Positions 23,880-46,938 of a DNA stretch of 64,000 bases are shown here, piece by piece (within the stretch, counting starts at the first letter, position 1; each line of letters starts with the position of its first letter). The stretch spans positions 620,001 to 684,000 of the forward strand of contig NZ_ARVU01000001.1 in the NCBI RefSeq assembly GCF_000384415.1, given 5' to 3'. The position numbers and the translations under genes are program-made. The notes under the pieces were generated by a model. It did not search any database. It saw nothing but the letters and a program-made list of their open reading frames with translations, and had not been told where the DNA came from. The stretch is from Cycloclasticus pugetii PS-1 (GTDB lineage Bacteria; Pseudomonadota; Gammaproteobacteria; Methylococcales; Cycloclasticaceae).

Positions 23880-26489
23880 CTAGTTAGATGGCTTTTCTGC
23901 AGTGCTTTGATGAGCTTCATAATGTATTACTTGAGGCTCAGAGTAGTTTGGAACATCATCATAACTAAAGGCAGCATAATATTTTGAGATTTTGCTAGAG
24001 CCAAAGCTGTCGTATGTGTAATTATCCGAACCAGCATAGAGCTTTACACCATCATAGGGTGAGCGAGGTGGGCGGAACCTATTGCGTACGACATAAGTGC
24101 CAACAAATGCTTTGGTAGGTGGGTTCGCCCATGTTAATTTCATTCGACCATTTTCATTGCTTGCTTTTAATTCAGTAACCGCTGCCGTTGGTTTTTTGCG
24201 ACGCTTGATATATTTAACGACTAATTTCACTTCATTTTTATGTCCAGCCTCATGCCAGTCAATCAATTTTGCATAAGATTCTGACTCAGAGGTGGCTCGT
24301 ATTACAAAAGCAGCTGCCTCATTAGATTCGTGTTTTTCTTCTAATGTTAATTGACTATATTTGTCGAAAATGAAGTACTGCTTTTGCTTGCGAACAAGGT
24401 CTTGCGTGGTTGCTTCATAACCGACATACTCGATATTAGTTCGATTTCTGATATCAGAATAGCTGATGGCATTCATGTCGACAAACTCAAGATTAAAGCA
24501 GATATCACGATCACTGGGGGGGGTGTTTTTATTTTGTAAGCAAATAAAGGCTTCGGTAATAACCGTTTCTTCTGGGTTCGGTAAACTGTACAGGTTAAAC
24601 TCAATATAGCCGTATGTTTTACCATCATTTTCGCTAAAACCAGACAGGAGCTCGTTTTCAACAACCCCTTTTTTTGACAGACTACAAAGGCGCGTGGGTG
24701 ATAAGACCACTTCTGTTTCAGGGACGGTATAAATGACCTCAAGGTGTGGGCGATAATGAATCCCGCCACCAAATTTTCCATAGCCAATGTCGAATTGCAT
24801 CATTTGTGAATCACGCCCAAGAGGCAGTGTTTTGGGGCCATCTATGCGAAATAATACCGAGCGTTTTGCTAGGTTTGATTCTAGAATTCGACATTCATGA
24901 GCACTAAAGGTCCAATGACTCCAGATACCCTGTGTTAGGGCGTCTGATGGAACTGTTTGACCTAAGGTTTCTATGCTTTCGGCCTGCTCTATATCTTCAA
25001 AGTTTGTTATATCGGCTACGTTATCTTGCTCTAAAAATGAAATCGACCAATCTCCAAACTGCTCAATTTTTGCGGCGACACGATTCATTGGGTAGAGTGA
25101 AGCCCTGGCAAACTTAATAACAGCATTTTCAGGGATGTTATCGAGGCTAAACTCAAGAACACCGGTACAGATACCTTTGGATTGGTTGATGCCAATGAAG
25201 AGTGAATTGTGACCAAAATGTTGGCGGTTTTGCTCGCCAGTGTATTGACCAACATAACCGACATTGGATTTACCGGGGAATAGCACCCTAGAAAATTCAT
25301 TATGATCTAGTAATGTTTTTAATCTAATTTTTGTAGCAAAAGGCGATTTAATATTACTCAAGCGATGAACCGCACGAATATAGTAAAAATACATGGTGCC
25401 ACTATCGAGTTCTATATCTGTAAACTCTTGTGCATGGGTAATGCCAACTAAATTACTTTCGGTGCAGGCTTGTTTGTTTTTTGTATTGCGATAGATTTCA
25501 AAATAAATATCTTCATCTTCTTCATACGTCCACGTTAACGTGGCAGATTTACTTTCAATCTTAAGGATATTAAGTTCAGTAACGCGTTTTGGAGCGTGTG
25601 TGGAATAATTAATTGCCTCACCTAATGCATATTGTACCGCCGGTATATTTTCATTAATCGACTGGGTCATGTTTTGCATATAGTCGGGAATATTACGGGT
25701 ACCGACTTCGACAACAGTGGCAAGAATGCCTCGGCTATAATAGTATTCTCGTCCGCTTCCACCGATCAAGTTTGTAGGCGGTTTACCACGATGAATACCG
25801 TATTTACGCCCTGTTACTTTGTAGATTTTTCTGGCCATATTGGCGCAAAGCATATTCAGGTCTGTGCCTTCATGTTCGGCTTCATGATTAAACTTGTGGG
25901 CAGGGAAAAAAACATTTCCCTGAGAGTGGTAATCTAAAGCAATCGTAATGTTTTGATGACTGTCCACAAATTGTTTGATGGCCTGAGTTTCTGGCTCACT
26001 AAAGGGCTGTGGCCCACTATAGACGTTTGATGAAGTGTTTTTTGAGCCTGGGAAACCGACACTAAAGTTACGATTAAGGTCAACACCATAGGTACCATCG
26101 TGATTGAGACGACGGTTCTTTCGCCAAAATGAGAAATGCTTCATTGAGTATTCGAAGCCATCCGGATTTAAACAAGGCACCATATAAAGCGTGTTACGGC
26201 TTAAGATGTTGATAAGCTCAGGGTTGTACTCATGGTTATCGACGATATATTCAATAAACTTAACAGCCAGCTCGTTACCAATCCATTCTCTGGCATGAAT
26301 GGTGCCTGTATACAAAAGAGCGGGTTTAGACTCTGCCTTTTCTACATCGAAAGAAGCGGTGATTAGCATAATCTCACGTTGTTCGTGAGTGCTGCCGATA
26401 CTCTGAAGTTTAAATAAATTGGGGTGCTGAGAAACAACATGTTGTAAATACTGTTCTGTTTCTTGGTATGTTTTATATTGTTTTTTCAC
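23880..26489 (-). CDS. M14 zinc carboxypeptidase with FN3 and DNRLRE-like beta domains, no signal peptide
   Basis: An 869-residue metallopeptidase. The M14 domain (about 1-295) has zinc ligands His65, Glu68 (HAREW) and His188 (DYHSQG), substrate-binding Asn139-Arg140 (DLNRNF) and the catalytic Glu261 (VVEVGT), so it should be active as a carboxypeptidase. A fibronectin type III-like domain follows at about 300-390. Two beta-rich repeats resembling DNRLRE domains follow (beginning RVLFPGKSNVGYVGQ and VVLSPTRLCSL), and a second FN3-like unit lies near 765-855. Accessory domains of this kind are usual on secreted enzymes, yet the N terminus (MKKQYKTYQETEQ) is hydrophilic. It appears to start at GTG. 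It lies downstream of two ATP-grasp genes on the same strand, suggesting trimming of a peptide product or substrate. Confidence 0.85.
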   Translation of the reverse strand: MKKQYKTYQETEQYLQHVVSQHPNLFKLQSIGSTHEQREIMLITASFDVEKAESKPALLYTGTIHAREWIGNELAVKFIEYIVDNHEYNPELINILSRNTLYMVPCLNPDGFEYSMKHFSFWRKNRRLNHDGTYGVDLNRNFSVGFPGSKNTSSNVYSGPQPFSEPETQAIKQFVDSHQNITIALDYHSQGNVFFPAHKFNHEAEHEGTDLNMLCANMARKIYKVTGRKYGIHRGKPPTNLIGGSGREYYYSRGILATVVEVGTRNIPDYMQNMTQSINENIPAVQYALGEAINYSTHAPKRVTELNILKIESKSATLTWTYEEDEDIYFEIYRNTKNKQACTESNLVGITHAQEFTDIELDSGTMYFYYIRAVHRLSNIKSPFATKIRLKTLLDHNEFSRVLFPGKSNVGYVGQYTGEQNRQHFGHNSLFIGINQSKGICTGVLEFSLDNIPENAVIKFARASLYPMNRVAAKIEQFGDWSISFLEQDNVADITNFEDIEQAESIETLGQTVPSDALTQGIWSHWTFSAHECRILESNLAKRSVLFRIDGPKTLPLGRDSQMMQFDIGYGKFGGGIHYRPHLEVIYTVPETEVVLSPTRLCSLSKKGVVENELLSGFSENDGKTYGYIEFNLYSLPNPEETVITEAFICLQNKNTPPSDRDICFNLEFVDMNAISYSDIRNRTNIEYVGYEATTQDLVRKQKQYFIFDKYSQLTLEEKHESNEAAAFVIRATSESESYAKLIDWHEAGHKNEVKLVVKYIKRRKKPTAAVTELKASNENGRMKLTWANPPTKAFVGTYVVRNRFRPPRSPYDGVKLYAGSDNYTYDSFGSSKISKYYAAFSYDDVPNYSEPQVIHYEAHQSTAEKPSN

Positions 26490-26684
26490 TGCAGTTGATT
26501 CTTCTTAAAGTAAGGGGCGTTAGATTAAGGGGGCTTATTGGGGGCGTATAAAGCCAGCTAATGCTTATTTGGACGATGCTAACACGTTGATCACATTAAG
26601 TTAACACCGATGCCTAGTTGCTAATGCTGCGTTGTTTGCGGCATTAGCGCATTGCTTATAAGTATCAAGGCTTAACGTCCCTAT

Positions 26685-28304
26685 TTAGAGTAAAACGGGT
26701 GTCATGTCATTTGCCAAACCTTTAATACTACGTGGTTGTTTTTTTACCGTTAGTTGAAAACATAATAAATTCGGTAGTAATGCTTTAACTTCATCGGCTC
26801 TTCCTTTGAATGTGCCATCATTACCCCATATCGCAATCGTTTTTTCAGCGCGTTGATGATTTTCTAATAAGCTGACATCATTATATGTGCCGATTGGGTC
26901 GCAGGCCTTTTTTAGGTCTGAAATGTTCTTCGCTCGGTACGCAAAAAGACTGCCAATAATAATGCTGCCATAGTCATGTTGTTTCGCATAAGCGATACAT
27001 TTTTTTATTAAAGCATCATCATAATGGTCTTCTTCGCAGGTTGGGTGTAAAGCAATAAAAAATAAGCTCGGTTTTTTAATATCCCATGTTCGGCTCAGTG
27101 AATAACGGTATGTCTCATCGGTGGGTGGTATGACAAACGCATTGTCGGCATTTGCGCTAATGGACTCAGCTGTTTTAGCAGAATTTTTTGATGTGGTTGG
27201 AGCCGGTTTTGAATCGGTTTTTTTTTGACGACCTAAATTATCTTGAAAATTCCAAATATCACTGGGCCACTCTTCTTGACTTAGGTCTTTTATTAAGAGC
27301 TCATTAGTGCTTGTTTTGGCAAGTGGTGTAAAGCAGTCGGCATCTGAGCTAGGGGTATATTGACCAAAGGTGATTTGGCGCATGGTTCTTAATAAGTAGG
27401 GCGATATCTTACCAAGCTCTTCCCAGTTATTAATGGGGAAATGGGGCTTTTTAAATTGACCGTTACCAAATAACCACATCAAATATTGACCTATCCAGTC
27501 CCTAATATAAGGGAAGGCCGCAAAGGCCGTTGCGCACTCTAATATGCGGTACTTGCCATCTTTTCCAACAGCGATGTCACAGGCCCAGTATTCTGCTTTT
27601 GCGGCTTTAGAAACGCGTACAGCTAAATCAAGCACTTCCTTTGGCACGTTTTGGTAATCAATGCTGCCACCCTGACTGGTATTGGTTAACCACTCACCTT
27701 CTGGTGGACGGCGCCAAAAGGCACATACCGGTTCGTGACCGATTAACATGACGCGAATATCAGCTGACATGGGAATAAAATCTTGAACGTAAATGGGGTT
27801 GTATTTTTTGCTTTCTAGTAGTTGTTTGGCTTCATCAAAAGTATCGACCTTATGAACAAAATAGCCACCATAATTTGACGGCCCATAGGATTTTTTAATG
27901 ATTTTTGGGTAACGAGTTTTTTCAAGAAACTGGTAGCCTTTTTTACGGTCGTAAAAAATATGTGTTGGCGGAATAGGAATGTCATATTTTTTACAAAAGC
28001 GTGTAACGTTTTCTTTGGATTTATTAGAAAACTGTGTGTCTAGTGAGGGGACAAAGCGGACGTTAGGCAGTGCTTTGGAGATTTCACGAAACGTTTCGTA
28101 CGCTGTTGCCGGAATATTACCAATTAAAACATCAATTTTTTTGTTTTTAATGTCGTTAATAAGGCGTTGCTGGTCATTTTTCCAATGATAAGTGACGGTT
28201 TCAATTTTATCCGGCCAACCTTTAAAGTTAGATGGGTGAAAAAATTGCAGTACAAAGTCCATGTACAGTAAACCTAATGTTGGGCGTTTTTGACTGCTAT
28301 TCAT
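26685..28304 (-). CDS. ATP-grasp ligase fused to a DUF1643 domain
   Basis: A 539-residue cytoplasmic fusion. Residues about 1-310 form a RimK-like ATP-grasp enzyme: ATP-binding lysines in KIIKKSYGPSNYGGYFVHK (about 134-152), DIRVMLIG and the metal-binding WACDIAVG and ILECATAF segments. In the last, the usual Glu-x-Asn reads Glu256-Cys-Ala258, so the second metal ligand is changed. A Lys/Ser/Ala/Thr-rich linker (about 360-390) leads to a complete DUF1643 domain (about 398-539), with YSLSRTWDIKKPSLFFIALHPT, DPIGTYND and WGNDGTFKGR. DUF1643 has no assigned function. The gene overlaps the upstream ATP-grasp gene by 4 bases. It probably makes an amide bond to an amino acid or peptide acceptor; substrates are unknown. 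Confidence 0.85.
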   Translation of the reverse strand: MNSSQKRPTLGLLYMDFVLQFFHPSNFKGWPDKIETVTYHWKNDQQRLINDIKNKKIDVLIGNIPATAYETFREISKALPNVRFVPSLDTQFSNKSKENVTRFCKKYDIPIPPTHIFYDRKKGYQFLEKTRYPKIIKKSYGPSNYGGYFVHKVDTFDEAKQLLESKKYNPIYVQDFIPMSADIRVMLIGHEPVCAFWRRPPEGEWLTNTSQGGSIDYQNVPKEVLDLAVRVSKAAKAEYWACDIAVGKDGKYRILECATAFAAFPYIRDWIGQYLMWLFGNGQFKKPHFPINNWEELGKISPYLLRTMRQITFGQYTPSSDADCFTPLAKTSTNELLIKDLSQEEWPSDIWNFQDNLGRQKKTDSKPAPTTSKNSAKTAESISANADNAFVIPPTDETYRYSLSRTWDIKKPSLFFIALHPTCEEDHYDDALIKKCIAYAKQHDYGSIIIGSLFAYRAKNISDLKKACDPIGTYNDVSLLENHQRAEKTIAIWGNDGTFKGRADEVKALLPNLLCFQLTVKKQPRSIKGLANDMTPVLL

Positions 28305-29215
28305 TTATTTTTCTCGTGTAGTTTTTTTTCAATTAAGTTGACGATGGCGTTAATTTTTTTAGTATTAAAATCTAAGCCTAGTTGTTCTTGTTCTGGTGTG
28401 GCAAAAGCAGGGATGCCGTTGACCTCTAAAACCACATATTGTTCACGTTCTTGATCATAAATCATATCGACGCCAGCAATATCCAGGCCGGTTAATTTGG
28501 CGGCCTTTTTAGCTAAAGCGACCAGCTCATCAGTTGGTTCACGTAGTAACAATTTGCCGCCACTGGTAATGTTGGTTTTCCAGTCGCCAGCAGGGGCTTG
28601 ACGACCATAGCAACTGATGTATTCACCGTCGACAATATCAACCCTGAAGTCAGTGTTATCGTAATCAATAAAGCGTTCAACGTAAAAATGCCGAAGATCG
28701 GTATGTTTTATAAAGGGTATCAGCATATCAAGGGCCGCGTCGTTTTCAATTTTAACAAGCCCCATGCCTCCCCAGCCCTCAGTAGGTTTGTATATAATCT
28801 TGCCACCCCATTCTTTTAAGATTCTGCGTAGTGTATGAACATCATTACGATGGCATAACTCATATTCTGGCGTGATGATGCCATTACGTTGTAATAAATG
28901 AGCTGTTTTGAATTTATCCTCGGTTAGGCTAAAGGCCGTATAGTTATTAATGATCGGTATATATTGATCCAACGCTTCATAAAGATATAGTTGGTACTGT
29001 GTTTGTTGGCCAGCGTTGTAGCTAAAGAACAAATCTAACTCTTCCATTATAACGCCATCGCAGTAAATAGCGCCATTTGTGGCTGTTGCATTTCTTAAAT
29101 TTAGCTCGGTAATTGCAGAAATGTCGCGTTCTTGTAATTGGGCAATGATCGAATTTTGAATAACATCACCACCACCATTTTGATAGATCCATAACCCAAT
29201 TTCATAGGTAGACAT
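28301..29215 (-). CDS. RimK-like ATP-grasp ligase
   Basis: A 304-residue ATP-dependent carboxylate-amine ligase. ATP-grasp motifs are complete: KIIYKPTEGWGGMGLVKI (nucleotide lysine and Gly-rich loop), FYVERFID, DFRVDIVDGEYI, the Arg-rich acceptor loop near GRQAPAGDWKTN, and the metal-binding GVDMIYD with VVLEVNGIPAF (Glu-x-Asn intact). It is the first gene of the minus-strand group and overlaps the ATP-grasp-DUF1643 gene by 4 bases. Two different ATP-grasp enzymes in one operon suggest two successive peptide-bond steps, or a catalytic and a divergent partner. Confidence 0.87.
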   Translation of the reverse strand: MSTYEIGLWIYQNGGGDVIQNSIIAQLQERDISAITELNLRNATATNGAIYCDGVIMEELDLFFSYNAGQQTQYQLYLYEALDQYIPIINNYTAFSLTEDKFKTAHLLQRNGIITPEYELCHRNDVHTLRRILKEWGGKIIYKPTEGWGGMGLVKIENDAALDMLIPFIKHTDLRHFYVERFIDYDNTDFRVDIVDGEYISCYGRQAPAGDWKTNITSGGKLLLREPTDELVALAKKAAKLTGLDIAGVDMIYDQEREQYVVLEVNGIPAFATPEQEQLGLDFNTKKINAIVNLIEKKLHEKNK

Positions 29216-29546
29216 GTTTTTTTATCCTCAGATGAAGCGCTCTATAAGATTACAGCAATATTAGTACCAAGCCTGTAAGTCTTTGTTAGAGCTTGCTTAA
29301 AGCTGTTTTAGGTGCAAATAGTCGCACCATATCAGCGCTTTTTGCTTTTATATGGTGCAGTGCAAAAAATAAATGCTAGTTTTTTTATTCGTTGTTCAAA
29401 ACTGCGATATATTTCTAAGTATGAGGTGAATAATAGTGTTTAGATCTTGAGACTAGGTGAACCGGGTTATGACTATGTTGTTTGGATTTACCCTGAATTT
29501 GGTTAGGCCTTTTTTTGACTGTTAATAAAGCATGGTGAAGGGTGAA
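29216..29546. other. Divergent intergenic region with competing hairpins (29311-29358)
   Basis: This region separates the minus-strand ATP-grasp operon from the plus-strand M20 gene and holds no gene. GCACCATAT (29324-29332) and ATATGGTGC (29350-29358) form a 9-base-pair stem with a 17-base loop. GGTGC at 29311-29315 could instead pair with GCACC at 29324-29328. Such mutually exclusive stems recall an attenuator, but no leader peptide is evident. AT-rich flanks could hold promoters for both sides. Confidence 0.4.
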
Positions 29547-30647
29547 ATGGATTTTTCTGAATTAGCAGAATTAATTAATATTAATTCTTATACGAAGAAT
29601 AAGCAGGGTGTCGATAAGAGTGGTGCCTTGTTTCAACTATGGATGGAAGAGATTGGTTTCGTGACCTATGTTTACCAGCGAGAAATGATAGGTAATCATT
29701 TATTGTTTACCTCAACTCAATCAACAGGTAAAAAATTACTGCTGTTGGGCCATTTAGATACCGTTTTCCCGCCTTTGAGTTTTGAAACCTTTAGTGAAGA
29801 TGAGCAGTGGATATATGGTCCGGGTGCTTGCGATATTAAAGGCGGTAACTATGTTGCTCTTTGTGCCTTAAGAGCTGTTAAAGCTGCCTGTGGTCAAATT
29901 GGCAATATAGATATGTTATTGGTCAGTGACGAGGAAACCGGCAGTGATGATTCCAAACTGATTAGCCAACAATTAGCCGAACAATATGATTATGTGTTGG
30001 TGTTTGAGGCTGCAGGAAAGAATAATGAATTGGTGACTGGGCGAAAAGGCGTGGGCACATTCTTTATTGATATTAAAGGTAAGGCCGCACATGCTGGAAA
30101 CCATTATTCCGAAGGAGTTAATGCTAATTTAGAGGCGGCGCATAAATGTATTCAATTAACTGAATTGACCGACTTGGAAAGAGGGACCACAGTGAATGTT
30201 GGTAAGTTGGAGGGCGGTATTGGTGCCAATACTATTTCTCCGCATGCTCGTTTAATTGTTGAAATGCGTTATACCAATATGAAAGAAAGAGATCGAGTGC
30301 TTGAGGCGATACACGTGATTACCCACACGCATGAAGTTGAGGGAACTGATGCCAGCTTATCTGGGGATATTCAGCGAGATGTCATGGAGCCTAATGAAAA
30401 ACAGCAGCGGTTTTTAAGACAATTAGAATCCATCACCGGTGATCGATTGTTAACAGAACAACGGGGTGGTGTTAGTGACGCAAATATTTTTGCTGCGAAG
30501 GGTTGTATTACCTTGGATGGGTTTGGCCCCTTTGGAGATGGGGACCATACTATTCATGAACGAGCGAATAAACAAAGTTTTATAACGCGTATTGAGCAAG
30601 TTAGAAAAATCTTGATGCATTATAACCAAGGTTTGGAGAAGGATTAA
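29547..30647 (+). CDS. M20 family metallopeptidase, glutamate carboxypeptidase (CPG2)-like
   Basis: About 366 residues. The di-zinc signature is present: His69 and Asp71 in LLLGHLDTV, bridging Asp96 in GPGACDIKGG, Glu129-Glu130 in SDEETGS, Glu154 in VFEAAG, and the last His in GDGDHTIHERANK. His182 (AAHAGNHY) marks the lid/dimer domain of the CPG2 group, which removes C-terminal glutamate or other residues from amides. No signal peptide is present, so it acts in the cytoplasm. ATG 29547 is chosen over 29532 because AAGGGTGAA immediately precedes it. It is divergent from the ATP-grasp operon, with which it probably works. Confidence 0.85.
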   Translation: MDFSELAELININSYTKNKQGVDKSGALFQLWMEEIGFVTYVYQREMIGNHLLFTSTQSTGKKLLLLGHLDTVFPPLSFETFSEDEQWIYGPGACDIKGGNYVALCALRAVKAACGQIGNIDMLLVSDEETGSDDSKLISQQLAEQYDYVLVFEAAGKNNELVTGRKGVGTFFIDIKGKAAHAGNHYSEGVNANLEAAHKCIQLTELTDLERGTTVNVGKLEGGIGANTISPHARLIVEMRYTNMKERDRVLEAIHVITHTHEVEGTDASLSGDIQRDVMEPNEKQQRFLRQLESITGDRLLTEQRGGVSDANIFAAKGCITLDGFGPFGDGDHTIHERANKQSFITRIEQVRKILMHYNQGLEKD

Positions 30648-31017
30648 CGCGTCTACTCAGTGCAATGAAGTTGATAAAAACCATGTGTGATCAAGTCGTT
30701 CGCTCGCAAGGCTAAGCAAATATCTTATTTTGGACGAATAAAAGGCCTACTTATCTTAAGTGGCCTGTAGGATAAACTGCATTTTGCAGCCGTGGCTACA
30801 TCATTATTAAGCCTTGCTTGGTATCAAATTTTTCATCGCTATTCGTAAAACAGTAGACATCTAGCCGTTGTTTTTTTAGGCCGTTATAAAGCCCTTTGTG
30901 TTTACTTAATGGGGTATCATCATGACAGTAAAGTTGTTAAAAATTTAATGAATCAGTGGCTTAGCCCGCCCTCTGGCATTCATTGGTATAAGCAAGTTGT
31001 CAACGATCGGGGTTTAT
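30648..31017. other. Intergenic region between the M20 gene and the DUF432 gene
   Basis: No gene is seen. A hairpin at 30743-30766 (AGGCC, one bulged T, ACTTA, loop TCT, TAAGT, GGCCT) could end or stabilise the M20 transcript but lacks a T run. The rest has no clear signal apart from the Shine-Dalgarno-like GGGG before the DUF432 start. Confidence 0.4.
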
Positions 31018-31830
31018 ATGGGTCAACAAGATTTAAAACAAGAATCGAGGTGCTGGGGGGTGTTTGATTTGACACCCAACACAAGGTTGCAATTTAACTG
31101 TGGGGACCTTTTGCTGGATATTGCGTCTGGCGAGAAAGATTGGCTTATGCAGTATGAATTGAAAACAAGCGACACAGTGCACAACCCGTGTATACAACTG
31201 ATGGGTACGGGTGAGGAGGGCTGGAGCTTGGCGAACAAGCAACGTATTGTGTCAAACAATATACCGCAAAAGCTTTCCTTGACTCCTGTTATGTCTGACA
31301 GGGCTATTGTCTGTCGTGCGACCACGACTGTTGTCTTGTTGCCAAAAGAACAAATATCGCTCTATGTTGCTGTTCCATTGTGGTTGCAACTGAGTATAAG
31401 GGGCGGGGAAAAACCATTGTTAGATGTCTCAACAGAGCGTATTTCAGATACATGGTTTGGCTTAAATTCACGAGAAGGTGTGATGAGTTATGCTTTGCGT
31501 ATGAGCGAGCAATTAGATATACAACCTTCAACCAACCACGGAATGCGAGTGACGATTGAGATTAGAATTAAAAATGAATCCAATGAACAACTAAATTTAG
31601 ATAAAGTGAGTGTGCCAGCACCACATCTTGCGCTTTATGTAGATGAAGTTGGTCACTTTTGGACACGCCGTATTACTATGGTTCGTGAACAAGATGAACA
31701 GGCGACCCTGACCATAGATAAAGTAATGAGTACAGGTTTAGCCCATCAAAACCTGACCCTAGTGAGTGCAGCAAGAGACGACCTGGGGCAACATAAAATA
31801 ACAAAGGCCTTATCAGCTTTGTTTGGTTAG
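31018..31830 (+). CDS. DUF432 family protein
   Basis: About 270 residues, soluble, no signal peptide or membrane segment. It matches the general pattern of DUF432 proteins: an N-terminal beta-rich half (WGVFDLTPNTRLQFNCGDLLLDI), a central VAVPLWLQLSIRGGEKPLLDVSTERISDTWFGLNSREGVMSYAL block and a C-terminal immunoglobulin-like half. The function is unknown. DUF432 genes often sit next to mechanosensitive channel genes, as here, 25 bases before an MscS gene, so a role in channel function or osmotic response is inferred. ATG 31018 is preferred over TTG 30997 because GGGG lies 6-7 bases before it. Confidence 0.7.
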   Translation: MGQQDLKQESRCWGVFDLTPNTRLQFNCGDLLLDIASGEKDWLMQYELKTSDTVHNPCIQLMGTGEEGWSLANKQRIVSNNIPQKLSLTPVMSDRAIVCRATTTVVLLPKEQISLYVAVPLWLQLSIRGGEKPLLDVSTERISDTWFGLNSREGVMSYALRMSEQLDIQPSTNHGMRVTIEIRIKNESNEQLNLDKVSVPAPHLALYVDEVGHFWTRRITMVREQDEQATLTIDKVMSTGLAHQNLTLVSAARDDLGQHKITKALSALFG

Positions 31831-31855
31831 CCAATAATACCCCAGGACATAACAG

Positions 31856-32701
31856 ATGGATAATGTATTCGCCAACATAAATACCGAGTTAACAATGGCC
31901 GTTGTACGTGCGCTGATTTTTTTTATAGTCGGTATTATTTTATCTCGAGCAGCTAATAACGTGGTGACCCGCTGGTCAACGCATAAGCTGGATGCGCATA
32001 AACAGTTATTGGTCGCAAGAGTGGCCAGTTACCTTGTGCTGCTGATGTTCTTTTTTATGGGTTTAAAAGCACTCGGGTTTGATTTAGGGGTGTTGATAGG
32101 CGCAGCTGGAATTATATCGGTTGCGATTGGTTTCGCCTCGCAAACCTCTGCCTCAAACATTATTAGTGGGTTGTTTTTGGTGTCTGAACGGCCCTTTTCG
32201 ATTGGTGACATGGTTCGTGTAGGTTCAACCATTGGCGAGGTTATTTCTATTGATTTATTATCGGTCAAACTAAGAACCTTTGATAATTTATTTGTACGAA
32301 TCCCCAATGAAACATTGATCAAGTCAGAAGTCACCACATTGACGCGTTTTCCAATTAGGCGAATTGATTTGGCGATAGGTGTTGCCTATAAAGAAAGCAT
32401 TAAGCATGTGCGCAAAGTGATGGAGCGGGTCGCCGATGCTAACCCGATCTGTTTGGATGAGCCTAAACCGACTTTTATTTTTAAAGGGTTTGGCGATTCC
32501 TCGTTGGATATGCAGTTTTCGGTTTGGGTAAAGCGAGAAAATTTTAGCGAACTAAAAAATGCTATTTATGAAGAAATTAAAGAAGCCTTTGATGCCGAAG
32601 GGATAGAAATACCCTTTCCGCACCAATCCATCTATGCGGGTAGTGTTACCGAGCCGTTCCCTATACGCGTGGTAACAGAGGAAAATGAGGCTGGACGTTA
32701 A
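31856..32701 (+). CDS. Small-conductance mechanosensitive channel, MscS family
   Basis: A 281-residue inner-membrane channel, similar in size to E. coli MscS. Three membrane segments are visible (about 10-32, 55-75, 80-115); the third is the Gly/Ala-rich pore helix GVLIGAAGIISVAIGFASQTSASNIISGLFLVSERPFSIGDMV. The cytoplasmic beta domain and alpha/beta vestibule follow, with FVRIPNETLIKSEV. It releases osmolytes on hypo-osmotic shock. It follows the DUF432 gene with a 25-base gap containing CAGGACATAACAG, so the two form an operon. Confidence 0.93.
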   Translation: MDNVFANINTELTMAVVRALIFFIVGIILSRAANNVVTRWSTHKLDAHKQLLVARVASYLVLLMFFFMGLKALGFDLGVLIGAAGIISVAIGFASQTSASNIISGLFLVSERPFSIGDMVRVGSTIGEVISIDLLSVKLRTFDNLFVRIPNETLIKSEVTTLTRFPIRRIDLAIGVAYKESIKHVRKVMERVADANPICLDEPKPTFIFKGFGDSSLDMQFSVWVKRENFSELKNAIYEEIKEAFDAEGIEIPFPHQSIYAGSVTEPFPIRVVTEENEAGR

Positions 32702-32802
32702 TTCGTAGTGAATAACGCTACTTAGAGAGCTTTATCAACTGGGCTTAGTCGCAAAAACCAATGTTTGAAGCTGACTGATTGGGCTTTATGATATCTGCGC
32801 TT

Positions 32803-33243
32803 TTAGTCATGGTTTTCATCGGCAATTACTTTTTCTCGTTGGTATAAAATAATGGCGGCGGTTCGTAGTGCGCCTAGTACAAACAAAAAAGTAGAAAGGG
32901 CATAAAGCATACTGGGATCAATTTTATGCTTGAATAAGGCAATTAAAATTTCACGAATAATGAAAACAATCGCTGCGTCAATAATTAAAGAAATTTTTAG
33001 TTTGTGAGAAATAAAGTAGTCGGTTATCGAACGCGATAATTCAATTAATACATAGAGGGTGAGCACATCAGTAATAATGTTAATATACTGACCGGTTACC
33101 CCTTCTAATTTAAACAAATCCCAAACAGAGAAAACGAGTTGGCCTGCCCCAATAGCAATGCCAATTATTATCAGTGCGAGAATCACCCCAAATACAATAT
33201 CAATGGTCTGACGATATAATTTTTTGAAAAACGTACTGAACAT
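32803..33243 (-). CDS. PsiE-like phosphate-starvation-inducible membrane protein
   Basis: A 146-residue protein with four hydrophobic segments (about 15-38, 53-72, 80-105, 110-132), matching PF06146 (PsiE). E. coli psiE is controlled by Pho and cAMP-CRP, but the biochemical role is unknown. It is convergent with the MscS gene and stands alone. A second PsiE-like protein is encoded at 57285-57743. Confidence 0.8.
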   Translation of the reverse strand: MFSTFFKKLYRQTIDIVFGVILALIIIGIAIGAGQLVFSVWDLFKLEGVTGQYINIITDVLTLYVLIELSRSITDYFISHKLKISLIIDAAIVFIIREILIALFKHKIDPSMLYALSTFLFVLGALRTAAIILYQREKVIADENHD

Positions 33244-40881: not shown

Positions 40882-43158
40882 ATGAAGTTATTGCGGTGTT
40901 TTAGTTATCTTTGTTTGGTTGTTTTTAGTGTTCACAGCTCGGCTGTTGCTGCGCAGGAACTGATAAACCAAGAAGCGACTAAGTTATGGCTTAAAGAAAA
41001 ACAAGAGACGATAGAACTTATTTCTCAACAGCTAGCTGACAATACGATAGATAAAGCTCGTTTGTTGGAATTGCGTCAAACGCTTCGCTCAGCGCGAACA
41101 GAATTACAATATAAGGTAGACGTTATTAAACCGGTTAATAATAGCGTGCAAGCAGATTTGGCCGACCTTGGCGCTGCCCCCGATGAAGATGCGCCACCAG
41201 AGCCCGATAATATTCAAAAGTTGCGCGCTGAGTTAACGAATGAGTCGTTAATTATTGAAGGTTTGCTGACACAAGCCGAAGCGCTGACGTCTAAATCATC
41301 GCGGTTGTTAGAAAAAATCACTTCGTTAAGACGCACATTATTTTTAGATGGGCTTTTTGAGCGGCAAATGGCAGTATTTAATACTACTTTATGGAAAACA
41401 GCAGAAGAGCCTTTTTATGCTCAATTTTCAAATTACAAAGGTATTTTTTACGATAAAACTCTGCGGTCGTTGAGTGTCATATCGGGCTGTATTCTTTTGG
41501 TCGTTTTCCTTTTCGCCACGTTAGTATCAAAAAAAAGGTTAACTATAAAATTACAAAATGCTGGGCGGGAACATGTGTTTCCATTGGTTTCAGCGTCGTT
41601 AGTTTTGCCATTTTTAGCGATAGGGCTAGGGCTGCTTTTCATTTATCAACTATTTATTAGCCAAGGCATTGTTACCGAGGCTAATCACTTGTTAATACAA
41701 AAGGTATTAATGCTTACGGGGTTTTTGTTCGCTGTGTATTTGATGACAGGGCGGTTTTTGAAAGCGGCTCTTATTCGTTCACATTTGCGTTATTTAATCT
41801 GTGTGGTGGCACTGCTGTTTGCTGTCGATACATTGCTTCTTGAAAGTGGAAAAATTATCGGGGTGCCCATAGAGCTGGCAGTTGTCCAAAGTTATATTGT
41901 GAGCTTAACTTTTGCGTTTATATTAGGCCTGTTTTCTTTGTTTGTATTGATAGGGCCAAAAGAGACTAAAGACTACTTTTTCCCACGCAAGATATTTGTT
42001 GTTTTTCTAACGATTAGCCTCTCCATCATTGTATTTAATGTATTTGGCTATGCAGCTCTTAGCCGTTATATCTTCGAAGGTTTTGTTCTTATTTTTTCAT
42101 TATTAGCGTCTATTCTCGTTATAAGAGCGGTTATTCGTCCATACTTTTATCGCTTAGATAAACGCTTTTCTCAAGACAACATAGGGGAAGACTCAGAGCA
42201 GGTTATTTACTTCTGGTTATGCCTATCATTGGATCTTATTTTGTTCTTTATCTGTTTACCTTTTGTTGCCGGTATTTTTGGCACCGAATGGCAATATATT
42301 CAAGAGACGATAAAGCAGGCATTTTTTGGCTTTAAAGTTGGCAATATGACCATCTCAATTTCAAATATTGGGGTTGGTTTACTTGTCTTTCTAACCTTGC
42401 TGTTCATCACACGTGTTATTCAGCGTATTTTGGATCAAAAGATTTTGCCTAAAACGAACATGGATACGAGTGTTCGTCAGTCAATAACACAGGTGTTAGG
42501 TTATGTTGGGCTGATTATTGCGCTAATGGCGAGTATATCAGCGGTTGGATTTGATCTAACGAATTTGGCGTTGATAGCCGGTGCGCTGTCTGTTGGCATT
42601 GGTTTTGGTTTGCAAAGTATCGTGAGTAACTTTGTTTCAGGCCTTATTTTGCTGTTTGAACGGCCCATAAAAGTAGGGGATTGGCTGATTACCAATTCAG
42701 GTGAAGGGATTGTAAAGAAAATCAGCGTGCGTGCCACAGTTGTTGAAACCTTTGACCGAACATCGATTATTGTGCCAAATGCTGAGCTCATTTCATCGTC
42801 TGTTAAAAATTGGACGCATGCAGATAGAGTAGGTCGTGTGATTGTGAATGTTGGCGTGTCATACTCCTCGGACCCACAACAAGTTCGAGATCTTCTAATG
42901 GACATGATTACGGAAAATAAAGACGTCTTAAAAACCCCAAAACCAACAGTTCTTTTTAAGGACTTTGCAGATAGCGCATTGATATTTGAAATACGTTTCT
43001 TTATTAGTAATATCCAAGAAATTTTTCCAATTTCAAGCCAAGTGCGCTTTGATATTTGGGAAGTGTTTAAAGAGGCAGGGGTGGAAATTTCTTTCCCACA
43101 AAGAGACTTACACATTCGTACAGCACCTGGATTAGAGGGAGTGTTTGATGGAAAATAG
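40882..43158 (+). CDS. Large mechanosensitive channel, MscK-like, with periplasmic domain
   Basis: A 758-residue protein. A signal peptide (about 1-25, ending AVAA) is followed by a helical periplasmic domain (about 26-190, DUF3772-like) and about eleven membrane segments (about 195-560). The MscS core includes pore helix LALIAGALSVGIGFGLQSIVSNFVSGLILLFERPIKVGDWL and a cytoplasmic vestibule with SIIVPNAELISSSVKNW. It is smaller than E. coli MscK (about 1100 residues) but of the same type. It probably acts as an osmotic safety valve under ionic control. It overlaps the ZntB-like gene by 11 bases, so the two are co-translated. Confidence 0.88.
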   Translation: MKLLRCFSYLCLVVFSVHSSAVAAQELINQEATKLWLKEKQETIELISQQLADNTIDKARLLELRQTLRSARTELQYKVDVIKPVNNSVQADLADLGAAPDEDAPPEPDNIQKLRAELTNESLIIEGLLTQAEALTSKSSRLLEKITSLRRTLFLDGLFERQMAVFNTTLWKTAEEPFYAQFSNYKGIFYDKTLRSLSVISGCILLVVFLFATLVSKKRLTIKLQNAGREHVFPLVSASLVLPFLAIGLGLLFIYQLFISQGIVTEANHLLIQKVLMLTGFLFAVYLMTGRFLKAALIRSHLRYLICVVALLFAVDTLLLESGKIIGVPIELAVVQSYIVSLTFAFILGLFSLFVLIGPKETKDYFFPRKIFVVFLTISLSIIVFNVFGYAALSRYIFEGFVLIFSLLASILVIRAVIRPYFYRLDKRFSQDNIGEDSEQVIYFWLCLSLDLILFFICLPFVAGIFGTEWQYIQETIKQAFFGFKVGNMTISISNIGVGLLVFLTLLFITRVIQRILDQKILPKTNMDTSVRQSITQVLGYVGLIIALMASISAVGFDLTNLALIAGALSVGIGFGLQSIVSNFVSGLILLFERPIKVGDWLITNSGEGIVKKISVRATVVETFDRTSIIVPNAELISSSVKNWTHADRVGRVIVNVGVSYSSDPQQVRDLLMDMITENKDVLKTPKPTVLFKDFADSALIFEIRFFISNIQEIFPISSQVRFDIWEVFKEAGVEISFPQRDLHIRTAPGLEGVFDGK

Positions 43159-44122
43159 TCATATCCTTTACGCTTGTAAGTTGAATGGCGACGGCTCGAG
43201 TACCTTACTCGAAGAGTCACAGATACAACAAACCATTAGTAGTGAATCCAAGGTTTGGATTCATTTAGAAGCAGAGCACCCAGAAAGCCGCCGTTTGCTT
43301 GAAAAAGAGTTTCCGCATTTAGATCACTTAGTTGTTGATGCCTTATGTGCAGATGAAACAAGACCTAGAATTCTTGAATTTGACTATGGCGCGTTGCTTA
43401 TTTTACGCGGGGTAAATTTAAACCCTGGCGCTGAGCCGAATGATATGGTGTCGATACGTTTATGGGTTGATAAAGATAATATTATCAGCCTACGGCGTCG
43501 AAAACTAAGAGCTGCCATCGATATTCAAGGGAAACTGAAAGCGGGGAAAGGGCCAAAAAATAGTGGCGATTTTGTGACCATGCTAATCGCTGGTTTATTT
43601 GAGCGAATGGAACCTATTTTTTCTGAAATAGATGAGAAGTTAGACGAGGTTGAAGAAAGTGTTATGGAAAACCCTGACACAAATGAGCGACAGGAAATCA
43701 CCTCTATTCGTAAAGACGCCATTATGTTTAAACGTTATATTGCCCCTCAAAGAGACGTGATTTCAAGCCTTCGTGTCTCTGATCAGTCGTGGTTGGAGCA
43801 AATGCATAAACGCCGCTTGCAAGAGTCATTAGACCGCGTAATAAGGTATGTTGAAGATTTGGATACGATTCGTGAGAGGGCTCAAATTGTTAAAGATGAG
43901 CTGGTCACCGGTCTTTCTGATCGGCTGAATAAAAATATGTATATGCTCTCGGTTGTTGCGGCTATATTTTTGCCCCTAGGTTTCTTGACTGGGCTGTTAG
44001 GGATTAATGTTGGCGGTATACCAGGGGCAAATAATGAAGCTGCTTTTTGGATCTTTATGGGCATATTGGCGCTAATTATCTTAGCTCAGGTCTGGTTGTT
44101 TAAAAAATTAAAATGGTTTTAA
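43148..44122 (+). CDS. CorA-family divalent metal transporter, ZntB-like
   Basis: About 324 residues. A long cytoplasmic N-terminal domain with the acidic helix FSEIDEKLDEVEESV is followed by two C-terminal membrane helices. The signature after the first helix reads GINVGGIPG, the ZntB form rather than CorA's GMNF(x)MPE, so zinc or another divalent cation is the likely substrate. ATG 43148 is preferred to TTG 43145. It overlaps the MscK-like gene by 11 bases. The region to 44347 is convergent, with no gene. Confidence 0.88.
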   Translation: MENSHILYACKLNGDGSSTLLEESQIQQTISSESKVWIHLEAEHPESRRLLEKEFPHLDHLVVDALCADETRPRILEFDYGALLILRGVNLNPGAEPNDMVSIRLWVDKDNIISLRRRKLRAAIDIQGKLKAGKGPKNSGDFVTMLIAGLFERMEPIFSEIDEKLDEVEESVMENPDTNERQEITSIRKDAIMFKRYIAPQRDVISSLRVSDQSWLEQMHKRRLQESLDRVIRYVEDLDTIRERAQIVKDELVTGLSDRLNKNMYMLSVVAAIFLPLGFLTGLLGINVGGIPGANNEAAFWIFMGILALIILAQVWLFKKLKWF

Positions 44123-44347: not shown

Positions 44348-45757
44348 TTAAAGTGTTTCTAAAACGCTAGAACTAACGGGTCTTTCCCACTTAAGCCTCT
44401 TTTCAATAGACGCAATAATATGCCCGGCTATATCTTTACCGGTGGCAGACTCAATACCTTCTAAACCTGGAGATGAATTAACTTCTAAAAGCAGAGGACC
44501 TTTACTCGAACGTATAATATCAACGCCAGCAACTTTAAGCCCTAATACTTTTGCCGAAAGCGTTGCTAAACGACGTTCTTCGGGTGTTATTTTAACCACA
44601 GAAGCGCTACCACCTTGATGAATGTTGGCTCTAAATTCGCCAGGAGCAGCAGTTCGTTGAATTGAGGCAACTACTTTGCCATCAATGACAAAACAGCGTA
44701 AATCTTTCCCGTCTGCTTCTTTAATAAACTCTTGAACTAGCAAGTTTGCATGCAGTGCTTTGAAGGCATTGATAACACTTTCGGCGGCTTTTTTAGTTTC
44801 AGCTAATACAACACCTCGGCCTTGAGTGCCTTCTAATAGTTTTACAATCAATGGCGCTCCGCCAACCATTTCTATCAAGTCGCTGGTATCCATTGGCGAG
44901 TGTGCAAAACCTGTTGTGGGGATACCAATGCCACTTTTTAACATCAGTTGAAGCGAAAATAACTTATCTCTTGATTGGCTAATAGCGGATGATGAATTGA
45001 CGGTATAAATGCCCATGCTTTCAAATTGGCGAGCCAAGGCGCAGCCATAAAAGGTCATGCTAGGTCTTATACGTGTGACAACGGCATCTAAGTCATTGAG
45101 GATTTTACCGCCTCGATAATGGACTTCAGGTGCTTGTTCATCGACTTTCATATAGCAATATTTGATGTTTAAAAACACCATTTCATGGCCACGTTCCTCA
45201 GCGGCTTCCATAAGGCGCATGTTGCTATAAAGGTCGGGGTTACTGGCAAGTAAGCCTATTTTTAGCCCACTTTTGTTTTTTTGAGGCTGGCCATACCAAT
45301 CGTAAAGCTGTTCTTTTGACGGCTCGTTGAGGCATAGGCTTAGCTCAGGGTCTACCAAGATTCGTCCTTTCATCGCTTCACGACCTAACAACATACGATA
45401 GCCCATTGAATCACGGTTTGCTAAGGTGAGTTCTACTTCCCATGTTTCGCTTTCCACCTTAATTAAGGTGGAAATTACGTAGCGTGTTTCAGAAATTCCA
45501 GACGAGCTTTTGACGGAACGTTTGTCAACCACAGGGCGTTCACAGCGCAACACAGTGCGGCGATCCTTTTGTAGTGGGTGTACTTCAAAGCTAACCCATA
45601 AAAGGCCTTCGCGTCTAAAGGTTTGAATGTTAAAGGCATGAATAGAGGATGTTTTAGCACCTGAGTCTACACGCGCTTTGATAGCAGGAATGCCTAGGGC
45701 AGGGAAGGAACACCATTCTTCACTACCTACAATGATTTTATTATTGCTAGAAGTCAT
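44348..45757 (-). CDS. RimB-like retropepsin-fold protease fused to RimK-type ATP-grasp glutamate ligase
   Basis: A 469-residue fusion. Residues about 5-150 form a RimB/PF05618 aspartic-protease-like domain with the active-site motif Asp31-Ser-Gly-Ala ([11 protein letters not shown]) and [12 protein letters not shown]. Residues about 165-455 form a complete RimK ATP-grasp unit: [21 protein letters not shown], the ATP loop [66 protein letters not shown]. RimK adds glutamates to the C terminus of ribosomal protein S6; in Pseudomonas, RimB acts with RimK as a separate protein. One chain carrying both is unusual. It is the third gene of an operon with a second RimK and an AstE-like hydrolase, 37 bases after the latter. 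Confidence 0.87.
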
Positions 45758-45794
45758 TTATTAGTCCAAATTAAAGGGTAAAAGGGGTACAAAA

Positions 45795-46856
45795 CTAGAT
45801 GATTGGAAGGTCTTCAGGGGGGGCTTCATCACTAGCAGGATCAAGGTCCAGCTGAAAAGCCTCCAAATTATCTACAACATCCTTAGGACGTGTGAAACGC
45901 GCAATATGAAATAAGGCTTCACCTTCACTAACGAGAGGCAGATTGGTTCTGCCGATAATAATGCCTGAAATGGGTGAAATAATATCGGTTTCTTTGCCAT
46001 CCTCACCGTAGGGTGTGGCAACAGCACCGAGTAAGTCACCCTCAAAAACATGTTTTCCCATTGAAACAGTCATCCGGAAAATACCACTTTGAGGTGCGCG
46101 AACCCAAAGAGTAGAGCGTGCAACAAAAGGTTCTGGAGCTTTCTTTTTGGTTTTACGTTTAGGGGGTGTCAGCATGCCAATCGATTGCATCACCGATAGA
46201 ATGCCTTTGACCCCTGCGCGGATCGAAAACTCATCGAAGCGGAGTGCTTCCCCTGCTTCGTAAACAATGATTGGTAAGTTTTTTTCTGTACTACAGGCAT
46301 ACCGTAAAGAGCCTTCTATTAGGCCAGAATTAACCACCACAGGCGCATTAAAGGCTAAGGCCATCTGTTCGGTCACCTGGTTGCTTAAGTCGGCGCGTAT
46401 TTGCGGCAAGTTGTCTCTATGAATGGCTGCTGTATGCAAATCAATGCCATGTGTACATTGCTGCACCACTTCGGTCATAAATAATTTAGCTAAGCGTGCA
46501 GCTAAGGAGCCTTTTACCGAGCCTGGGAAACAGCGGTTTAAATCTCTGCGGTCGGGTAAGTAACGGCTTTGGTTGAGAAAACCATAAACATTAACAATAG
46601 GCACAGTAATCAACGTGCCTTTCATTCGTGAGAGTGATTTGCTTTTTACCAGTCGACGAATAATTTCAACGCCATTAATTTCATCACCATGAACGGCCGC
46701 AGAAACAAAGAGAATGGGGCCTTCTTGCTTTCCTCGAATGACCTGTACCGGCATTGATAAAGAAGAATGTGTATATAAATCTGGCAGGGGAACATCAATG
46801 ATAGTGTTTGTTCCTGGTAAGACTTCTTGACCTGCAAGTATAAAGGGTTCTGACAT
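45795..46856 (-). CDS. Succinylglutamate desuccinylase/aspartoacylase-family hydrolase
   Basis: A 353-residue M14-like zinc amidohydrolase. Zinc ligands are His and Glu in VHGDEINGVEI and a later His in GIDLHTA; an Arg-rich substrate loop is DRRDLNRCFPGS and the likely catalytic Glu is in IIVYEAGEAL. The C-terminal domain (about 255-325) is beta-barrel-like (RAPQSGIFRMTV, ISPISGIIIGRT). Genes of this type are often found next to rimK-like genes. It probably removes an acyl or amino-acyl cap from a glutamate-containing product; the substrate is unknown. It lies between two RimK-domain genes on one strand. Confidence 0.87.
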   Translation of the reverse strand: MSEPFILAGQEVLPGTNTIIDVPLPDLYTHSSLSMPVQVIRGKQEGPILFVSAAVHGDEINGVEIIRRLVKSKSLSRMKGTLITVPIVNVYGFLNQSRYLPDRRDLNRCFPGSVKGSLAARLAKLFMTEVVQQCTHGIDLHTAAIHRDNLPQIRADLSNQVTEQMALAFNAPVVVNSGLIEGSLRYACSTEKNLPIIVYEAGEALRFDEFSIRAGVKGILSVMQSIGMLTPPKRKTKKKAPEPFVARSTLWVRAPQSGIFRMTVSMGKHVFEGDLLGAVATPYGEDGKETDIISPISGIIIGRTNLPLVSEGEALFHIARFTRPKDVVDNLEAFQLDLDPASDEAPPEDLPII

Positions 46857-46938
46857 TTTAATTATCCACTTGTATGTAGCTTAAATAGAGACCTTATCAG
46901 TCGGTTTTATTAATTAGCTAGAGATTAAACCGATCTGC

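Follow-up and report, generated by a model that had tools for sequence, protein, structure and literature searches.

Gene organization of the locus

The window analyzed here is a stretch of 64,000 nucleotides from Cycloclasticus pugetii PS-1, within which genes for two ATP-grasp ligases and two metallopeptidases lie side by side, with the following features:

23880-26489, minus strand: M14 metallocarboxypeptidase (869 aa; Pfam Peptidase_M14, E=2.5e-55)
26685-28304, minus strand: ATPg2, a divergent RimK/LysX-like ATP-grasp ligase (539 aa; RimK, E=8.9e-17)
26728-27107, minus strand: DUF1643 domain of ATPg2 (aa 400-525; E=5.9e-33)
28301-29215, minus strand: ATPg1, a stand-alone RimK/MptN/ArgX-like ATP-grasp ligase (304 aa; RimK, E=1.5e-20)
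29216-29531, no strand: intergenic region between the divergent ATPg1 and M20 genes, without a conserved ORF
29532-30647, plus strand: carboxypeptidase G2 (CPG2)-like M20 peptidase, divergent (371 aa; Peptidase_M20, E=9.4e-18, plus M20_dimer)

The four open reading frames proposed by an earlier, sequence-only reading are all present at the positions given, and the layout it described was borne out: the adjacent ATPg1 and ATPg2 genes share 4 bp (28301-28304), consistent with the translational coupling claimed for them, the M14 gene lies on the ligase strand (minus), and the CPG2-like M20 gene runs divergently (plus). The region between ATPg1 and M20 presumably serves as the promoter region for both transcripts. 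A second ATP-grasp/peptidase cluster, absent from that reading, occupies positions 44348-48156 of the window and encodes a RimB-RimK fusion (44348-45757, separate from the module), an AstE-like protein, and a RimK.

Conservation and co-occurrence of the four genes

All four genes are found in identical order, with unrelated flanks, in Campylobacterota (Sulfurovum and Nitratiruptor), Pseudoalteromonas, Alteromonas, and Photobacterium—that is, the gene order is common to Campylobacterota and four Gammaproteobacterial lineages, spanning two phyla. The M20 gene is divergent in 42 of 43 complete loci. Spacing across the 43 relatives' loci is tight, with medians of 5 bp between ATPg1 and ATPg2, 90 bp between M20 and ATPg1 (overlapping in some), and 68 bp between ATPg2 and M14, where overlaps also occur. 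Intact ATPg2 and M14 were detected in the identical 17 of 200 Campylobacterota genomes, every one of which also carries ATPg1 and M20; in two of these (G548 and G668), ATPg2 lies ~0.75-0.84 Mb from the other three genes. The chance of such an identical pattern is 1/C(200,17)=5e-25, a figure that ignores shared ancestry. A separate check of 18 genomes found M14 in 17 of them, mostly not adjoining ATPg2, and the four proteins diverge in step (Mantel r 0.88-0.93).

The grouping is far beyond chance, because the same order recurs in two phyla, ATPg2 and M14 share an identical phyletic pattern, and the divergence of the proteins is correlated. That all four come from common superfamilies might invite the view that they are unrelated neighbors that met by chance in this genome; however, the order kept across two phyla and the ATPg2/M14 pattern in 200 genomes effectively rule this out. 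Co-occurrence in other genomes, which had been set beforehand as the test of whether the four genes form one unit, was thus found, and they almost certainly constitute one uncharacterized pathway.

A patchy cassette with changing flanks could also signal a defence or mobile-element function, since within the genus Cycloclasticus the module is present in only 3 of ~17 genomes, with unshared flanks, and the DUF1643 family also occurs on phages and has homologs on many plasmids. However, the Campylobacterota copies sit among core genes and co-diverge slowly, and no obvious effector is encoded. PADLOC returned 0 matches across all proteins, which removes any known defence system from consideration, and one viral-contig scan, in which no relative was confirmed, led us to reject a phage origin as well. 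A role of this kind is accordingly quite improbable.

The ATP-grasp ligases

ATPg1 contains a RimK-like ATP-grasp domain (PF08443, 74 bits versus a cut-off of 21) and belongs, ExN motif included, to the RimK-like ATP-grasp carboxylate-amine ligase superfamily: K143, R191, R205, N215, D250, E264, and N266 are invariant in 43 of 43 relatives, and the canonical catalytic positions are all kept. Its closest PDB relatives are RimK (5zct, 4iwx, and 7qyr) and ArgX (3vpb), and, aligned with RimK, its R191 and N266 occupy the positions of R189 and N262, the residues through which the RimK structure shows contact to the terminal glutamate (PMC10092738).

ATPg2 consists of a ligase region (aa 1-356) followed by DUF1643 (aa 400-525), a fusion that the sequence-only reading did not record. 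Its PF08443 match (61.7 bits versus a cut-off of 21) recurs in 59 of 59 relatives, all of which also retain R184, N208, D243, and E256. The metal-binding Asn of the ExN signature is missing, being replaced by Ala (Ala258) in 59/59 relatives; the Asn that contacts glutamate in RimK (N266 of ATPg1) is thus Ala in ATPg2. This substitution may reflect a change in how metal is bound, a change in the reaction catalyzed, or a partner role without catalysis. The tail is variable: HHH_5 was scored in 25 of the 59 relatives and DUF1643 in three, all of them Cycloclasticus copies, with tandem helix-hairpin-helix (HhH) motifs at the same place elsewhere. The tail is normally a C-terminal HhH region, swapped for DUF1643 only in Cycloclasticus; what the HhH tails bind may be protein instead of nucleic acid. 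Because pLDDT is mostly <60 across the DUF1643 region of the predicted model, its low-confidence fold was left uninterpreted.

None of the four module proteins reached an NCBIfam equivalog cut-off. The top model for ATPg1 was MptN (E=5.6e-38; 131 bits versus 350), and the NAGGN synthetase equivalog TIGR03103 gave 36.2 bits against 569. The two ligases scored 125 and 77 bits (TIGR00768, cut-off 143.4) and 65 and 19 bits (PRK10446, cut-off 331) with the canonical RimK models, and 97 and 71 bits with the LysX equivalog TIGR02144 (LysX_arch, cut-off 275.6); Rimk_N was scored in neither. Literature searches on the gene set, DUF1643, and ATP-grasp proteins with HhH found no description, although a mention in a 2009 amidoligase survey is possible. 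With no equivalog, PADLOC match, or paper on the set, the earlier claim of no known pathway holds within the scope of these searches.

Both ligases nevertheless resemble enzymes of established pathways. MptN and CofF are cofactor glutamate ligases, yet beyond the low MptN score the module is without methanopterin or F420 genes. Another parallel is the LysW/LysX/ArgX/LysK system, in which ligases attach an amino acid to a small carrier protein and an M20 enzyme (LysK) frees the processed product: the best Foldseek matches of ATPg2 are ArgX, LysX, and RimK, headed in the PDB by ArgX with LysW (3vpb), and ATPg1 is ArgX-like around GCYxRxxPxxxWxxN. However, the LysX_arch scores fall far below the cut-off, recurrent neighbors include no carrier gene, LysW, or LysZ/LysY/LysJ homolog, and the scheme, lacking these biosynthetic partners here, has no role for the additional M14 enzyme, which makes carrier chemistry improbable.

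Graspetide ligases are also ATP-grasps (PMC8939145), and PsnB appears among the structural matches of ATPg2, so that the ligases might instead crosslink a precursor peptide that the peptidases mature. Against this, neither a conserved exporter nor, in the intergenic gaps of the 43 loci, a conserved small ORF was found. We rejected a RiPP with a local precursor because the gene spacing leaves no room for such an ORF; an unlinked precursor would revive the proposal, which we consider very improbable.

The metallocarboxypeptidases

The M14 protein combines a catalytic domain (aa 1-297) with a conserved, beta-rich tail of ~570 residues that has fn3-like ends and went unmentioned in the earlier reading. 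The structure search, dominated by the catalytic domain, gave no match to the tail among the matches listed and no evidence for a new fold. The enzyme is of the A/B (funnelin) type, with an HxxE...H zinc site, the R127/N144/R145 carboxylate site, and the E270 catalytic Glu; the corresponding zinc and catalytic residues (H65, E68, R126, N139, R140, H188, and E261) are invariant in 48/48 sequences, and VIA-align gave Z ~30 to carboxypeptidases A4, B, and T. R247, which is Arg in all 48, falls at carboxypeptidase A (CPA) position 255 in a gapless alignment, whereas the CPA Y248 position is replaced, mostly by N, K, Q, or H. Arg255 confers acidic C-terminal specificity on carboxypeptidase O (PMC9925722), and cleavage of C-terminal Glu/Asp, as in that enzyme, is therefore predicted for M14; the residue informs on the C-terminal side chain only.

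In the M20 protein, the co-catalytic zinc ligands and catalytic Glu (H74, D101, E134, E135, E159, and H339), as well as R282, are invariant (35/35). Its closest solved relative is carboxypeptidase G2 (1cg2, E=2.4e-29), and it scores 191 bits against PRK06133, 'glutamate carboxypeptidase' (cut-off 349), so that a glutamate-type carboxypeptidase is predicted. The usual substrates of CPG2-type M20 enzymes are small molecules, which favours a small product.

The sequence-only reading had proposed synthesis and trimming of a small cytoplasmic peptide or amino-acylated metabolite. Its cytoplasmic setting fits: in the 48/48 relatives examined, M14 has a conserved Met start and lacks a signal peptide, and in some genomes the M14 and ATPg2 genes overlap. 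Since both hydrolases look like Glu/Asp carboxypeptidases, reversible acidic aminoacylation would be a more specific reading than trimming.

Proposed mechanism and candidate acceptors

We propose, at roughly even confidence, a self-contained cytoplasmic module in which Glu/Asp is ligated onto a carboxylate acceptor and then removed again. ATPg1, being RimK/ArgX-like, would use ATP to convert the acceptor carboxylate into an acyl phosphate; a glutamate-like amino acid would then attack this intermediate through its amino group. ATPg2 would be a second, divergent ligase of the same series, brought to its target by its C-terminal adaptor (tandem HhH, or DUF1643 in Cycloclasticus). M14 may then take the C-terminal Glu/Asp off the product, its large beta tail docking on substrate or partner, and M20 may hydrolyze small glutamyl conjugates to recycle the amino acid. 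In this scheme the catalysis itself, the identity of the added residue (Glu/Asp), the step order, and reversibility are inferred. In its favour, genes for amino-acid synthesis or for a precursor are not conserved nearby.

The product could instead be small: from amino acids, the ligases would build a soluble osmolyte or redox metabolite of peptide or pseudo-peptide nature, and the carboxypeptidases would degrade or remodel it. The NAGGN osmolyte system, in which a peptide ligase and an M42 peptidase are encoded side by side, follows the same ligase-peptidase logic; the named carriers of the module come from marine or vent habitats, the cassette forms a complete unit, and the small substrates of CPG2-like M20 enzymes agree. 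Unlike NAGGN, however, the module encodes neither an asparagine synthase-like protein nor a GNAT-fused ligase, and it lacks an M42 peptidase. The recurrent neighbors include no conserved transporter, acyltransferase, or amidotransferase; no peptide-ligase equivalog was matched at cut-off, and the M14 docking tail and ATPg2 HhH/DUF1643 tail would be unusual for metabolite enzymes. We regard a small product as possible, if unlikely.

These tails are no less compatible with a macromolecular target than with a small peptide or aminoacylated metabolite. More tentatively, the module might be a bacterial writer-eraser system, distinct from RimK/RimB, in which ATP-grasp writers add acidic amino acids to a macromolecule and M14/M20 metallopeptidase erasers take them off again; equally tentatively, its target might be a protein C-terminus, or something bound to nucleic acid or ribosomes to which the ATPg2 HhH tail gives access. 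RimK/RimB (RimABK, S6 poly-glutamylation) likewise pairs an ATP-grasp ligase with a glutamate-removing peptidase, and the Arg and Asn through which RimK contacts glutamate are conserved in ATPg1. RimB, however, is retropepsin-like rather than a metallopeptidase, the module has two divergent ligases without a scored Rimk_N and an added HhH/DUF1643 tail, and the genome carries its RimB-RimK fusion separately. Eukaryotic TTL/TTLL glutamylases and CCP (M14) deglutamylases share with the module an ATP-grasp-type writer and an M14 eraser whose basic specificity residue serves C-terminal Glu, but represent other ATP-grasp and M14 subfamilies (the M14 of the module being carboxypeptidase A/B/T-like), and the module is bacterial, with an extra M20.

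Two macromolecular acceptors were examined, S6 and EF-P, and lend no support because neither differs obviously between module-positive and module-negative genomes. S6 C-termini are acidic and Ala/Glu-rich in positive and negative Campylobacterota alike, an indirect sequence comparison in which no link of the S6 tails to the module was seen. The EF-P loop sequence is the same in both sets, and EF-P was rejected as acceptor. In three loci (L063, L101, and L115), the EF-P gene is found 30-50 bp upstream of ATPg2; in G548 and G668 it is likewise close upstream, and in L107 and L110 its place is upstream of the M20-ATPg1-ATPg2 set. This linkage looks lineage-specific.

Biological significance

Modules of amino-acid ligases and peptidases yield cofactors or osmolytes, or tune proteins, as in RimK/RimB and tubulin glutamylation. 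If its target is macromolecular, the present module would represent a second bacterial glutamylation switch, operating via metallocarboxypeptidases, and would in its composition be the bacterial parallel to TTLL/CCP tubulin glutamylation; a small-molecule target would mean a new peptide metabolite in marine and hydrothermal-vent bacteria. Proteins that so far carry just the labels 'ATP-grasp domain-containing', 'M14', or 'DUF1643' thereby gain a testable function, and since the gene complement is fixed over two phyla, one knockout or in vitro reconstitution should reveal the product.

A conserved four-gene module

The window (G000:C1:620001-684000, from a genome of 2.38 Mb in one contig) carries the four genes picked out by the sequence-only reading, all of them present as described there, with two ligases and an M14 carboxypeptidase on the reverse strand and a divergent M20 peptidase.

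Features of the module in the window
23880-26489, reverse strand: M14, 869 aa, with the peptidase confined to the first ~297 residues
26685-28304, reverse strand: ATPg2, RimK-like ATP-grasp ligase with a C-terminal DUF1643 domain
26728-27107, reverse strand: DUF1643 domain of ATPg2 (residues 400-525)
28301-29215, reverse strand: ATPg1, ATP-grasp ligase
29532-30647, forward strand: M20, divergent peptidase

The two ligase genes overlap by 4 bp. Near the module (30997-33243 and 40882-44122) are a CorA transporter and two MscS-type channels, one of which adjoins a weak match to DUF432; in the relatives L015 and L016 the module has none of these genes as neighbours.

Within the order, true orthologs were found in only three genomes, all of the same genus as the window, and all three hold the four genes together in identical order; none of the window's flanking genes tested lies beside the module in the other two. 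One ATPg2 profile scan of genome contigs confirmed 324 relatives, and the best 80 of these, which were kept, come from Sulfurovum, Sulfurimonas, Nitratiruptor, and other Campylobacterota, as well as from Pseudoalteromonas, Alteromonas, Paraglaciecola, Psychrosphaera, and Veronia. A search of a plasmid collection also revealed the four genes, arranged in the same way, in Photobacterium sp. DA100 (53-68% identity). The neighbourhood comparison proposed from sequence alone thus shows that the four genes do co-occur elsewhere, with the arrangement M20(-) ATPg1(+) ATPg2(+) M14(+) conserved at 42 of the 43 loci where all four are full length. Across these 43 loci the median gaps are 5 bp for ATPg1-ATPg2 (minimum -8), 68 bp for ATPg2-M14, and 90 bp for M20-ATPg1, distances so short that they leave no room for a conserved precursor peptide, and any other neighbour gene is present at 12 of 81 loci at most. 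The four proteins also diverge in parallel: their pairwise distances correlate with r=0.88-0.93, compared with at most 0.32 under the null, and shared species history contributes to these values.

Patchy distribution and fixed composition

Among 200 Campylobacterota genomes, ATPg2 was detected in 18, among which the G576 copy is a fragment interrupted by stop codons. The 17 genomes with intact ATPg2 are exactly those that have M14 at full length, tail included; ATPg1 occurs in the same 17 and in G644, and high-scoring M20 (>550 bits) in the same 17, in G644, and in G600, the remaining M20 matches (~190-212 bits) being paralogs. If genomes were independent, which they are not, the probability that two sets of 17 in 200 coincide would be 5e-25. 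M14 was likewise present in 17 of 18 genomes examined separately, most of which lack an M14 adjoining ATPg2, and ATPg2 lies ~0.75-0.84 Mb from the other three genes in genomes G548 and G668. Only one of 274 sampled gammaproteobacterial genomes, the window's own, has the module. Given this rarity, and co-occurrence even where ATPg2 is distant, the module is patchy but fixed in composition, and its functional association is kept even when the genes are unlinked.

The module can also split 3+1, as at L155 (G251:C138), a co-directional M20-ATPg1-M14 operon with ATPg2 elsewhere in the genome. Remnants (an ATPg2 pseudogene only in G576, M20 only in G600, and ATPg1 with M20 near a contig start in G644) suggest module loss or incomplete assembly. 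Two MAGs, HLG_WM_MAG_04 and SZUA-1390, each contain two ATPg2 loci (L081/L097 and L073/L098), reflecting either true duplication or mixed bins.

Ligases and peptidases

In all 43 ATPg1 sequences seven residues are invariant: K143, R191, R205, N215, D250, E264, and N266. Of these, R191 and N266 align with R189 and N262 of RimK, the two residues that touch the last glutamate of a poly-glutamate chain in the structure of the Pseudomonas enzyme (PMC10092738). The closest NCBIfam models for ATPg1 are MptN, RimK, and ArgX, every one well under its equivalog cut-off. ATPg2, nearest in fold to ArgX, LysX, and RimK by structure search, has R184, R198, R199, N208, D243, and E256 invariant in 59/59 relatives, and the Asn of its ExN motif is replaced in all 59 (Ala258). 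In nearly all relatives the C-terminus consists of an acidic linker and, after it, a tandem helix-hairpin-helix (HhH) region (Pfam HHH_5 matched in 25/59); DUF1643 takes its place in the three Cycloclasticus copies alone, a domain-replacement event. The DUF1643 family is frequent on plasmids and has been reported in phages.

All catalytic and carboxylate-binding residues of M14 are invariant (48/48). R247 aligns gap-free with carboxypeptidase A position 255, where Arg confers on carboxypeptidase O its preference for acidic C-terminal residues (PMC9925722); the position of carboxypeptidase A Tyr248 is not conserved. In the predicted model (mean pLDDT 83) the catalytic domain resembles carboxypeptidases A4, B, and T (Z ~30), and the tail is all-beta, with fn3 matches in 27/48. 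Since the starting Met (48/48; MK in 45) stands directly at the peptidase domain, M14 has no signal peptide. M20, whose zinc and catalytic positions are all invariant (35/35), has carboxypeptidase G2 as its nearest solved relative.

Relation to known systems

The window contains a second ATP-grasp/peptidase cluster.

44348-48156, reverse strand: RimB(PF05618)-RimK fusion, AstE/aspartoacylase-like protein, and RimK with a TrkA_C domain

A RimB-RimK hybrid protein has been published (PMC11957791), and this cluster matches the known RimB/RimK type; the four-gene module is therefore additional to it. RimABK, TTLL/CCP, the LysW system, and NAGGN likewise join an ATP-grasp ligase to a peptidase, so the general kind is already known. 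As far as these searches reach, the claim that the set belongs to no described pathway held up: its combination and domain tails reached no NCBIfam equivalog at cut-off, it matches no PADLOC model, and the literature searched holds no description of the gene set, with a mention possible in an amidoligase survey (Iyer et al. 2009). Thus, the ligase-peptidase principle is known, and this gene combination with its domain tails matches no known system checked.

Proposed function and candidate acceptors

Two ligases together with two carboxypeptidases pointing to C-terminal Glu/Asp suggest a cycle of ligation and trimming, a reading from predicted activities to which we give an even chance. The ligases, binding amino acid carboxylates, would attach acidic residues to a carboxylate acceptor, and the carboxypeptidases, with predicted specificity for C-terminal glutamate/aspartate, would trim them off again. 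The module holds no biosynthetic or precursor genes, which implies an acceptor already present in the cell. That the product is instead a free peptide metabolite, as first proposed from sequence, seems to us less likely than the cycle.

Two candidates were considered for the acceptor of such a cycle. The ribosomal protein S6 is the reported RimK substrate, and its tails are acidic both with and without the module in the genomes compared, leaving S6 unsupported. In some Sulfurimonas-type genomes the gene for elongation factor P (EF-P) directly precedes ATPg2 (30-50 bp upstream at L063, L101, and L115; also close in G548 and G668) or stands upstream of an M20-ATPg1-ATPg2 operon (L107 and L110); the EF-P modification loop is the same in module-positive and module-negative genomes, and EF-P is likewise unsupported. 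ATPg2 and M14 each carry a docking tail, which somewhat favours a macromolecular acceptor, and M20 leans towards the recycling of small conjugates.
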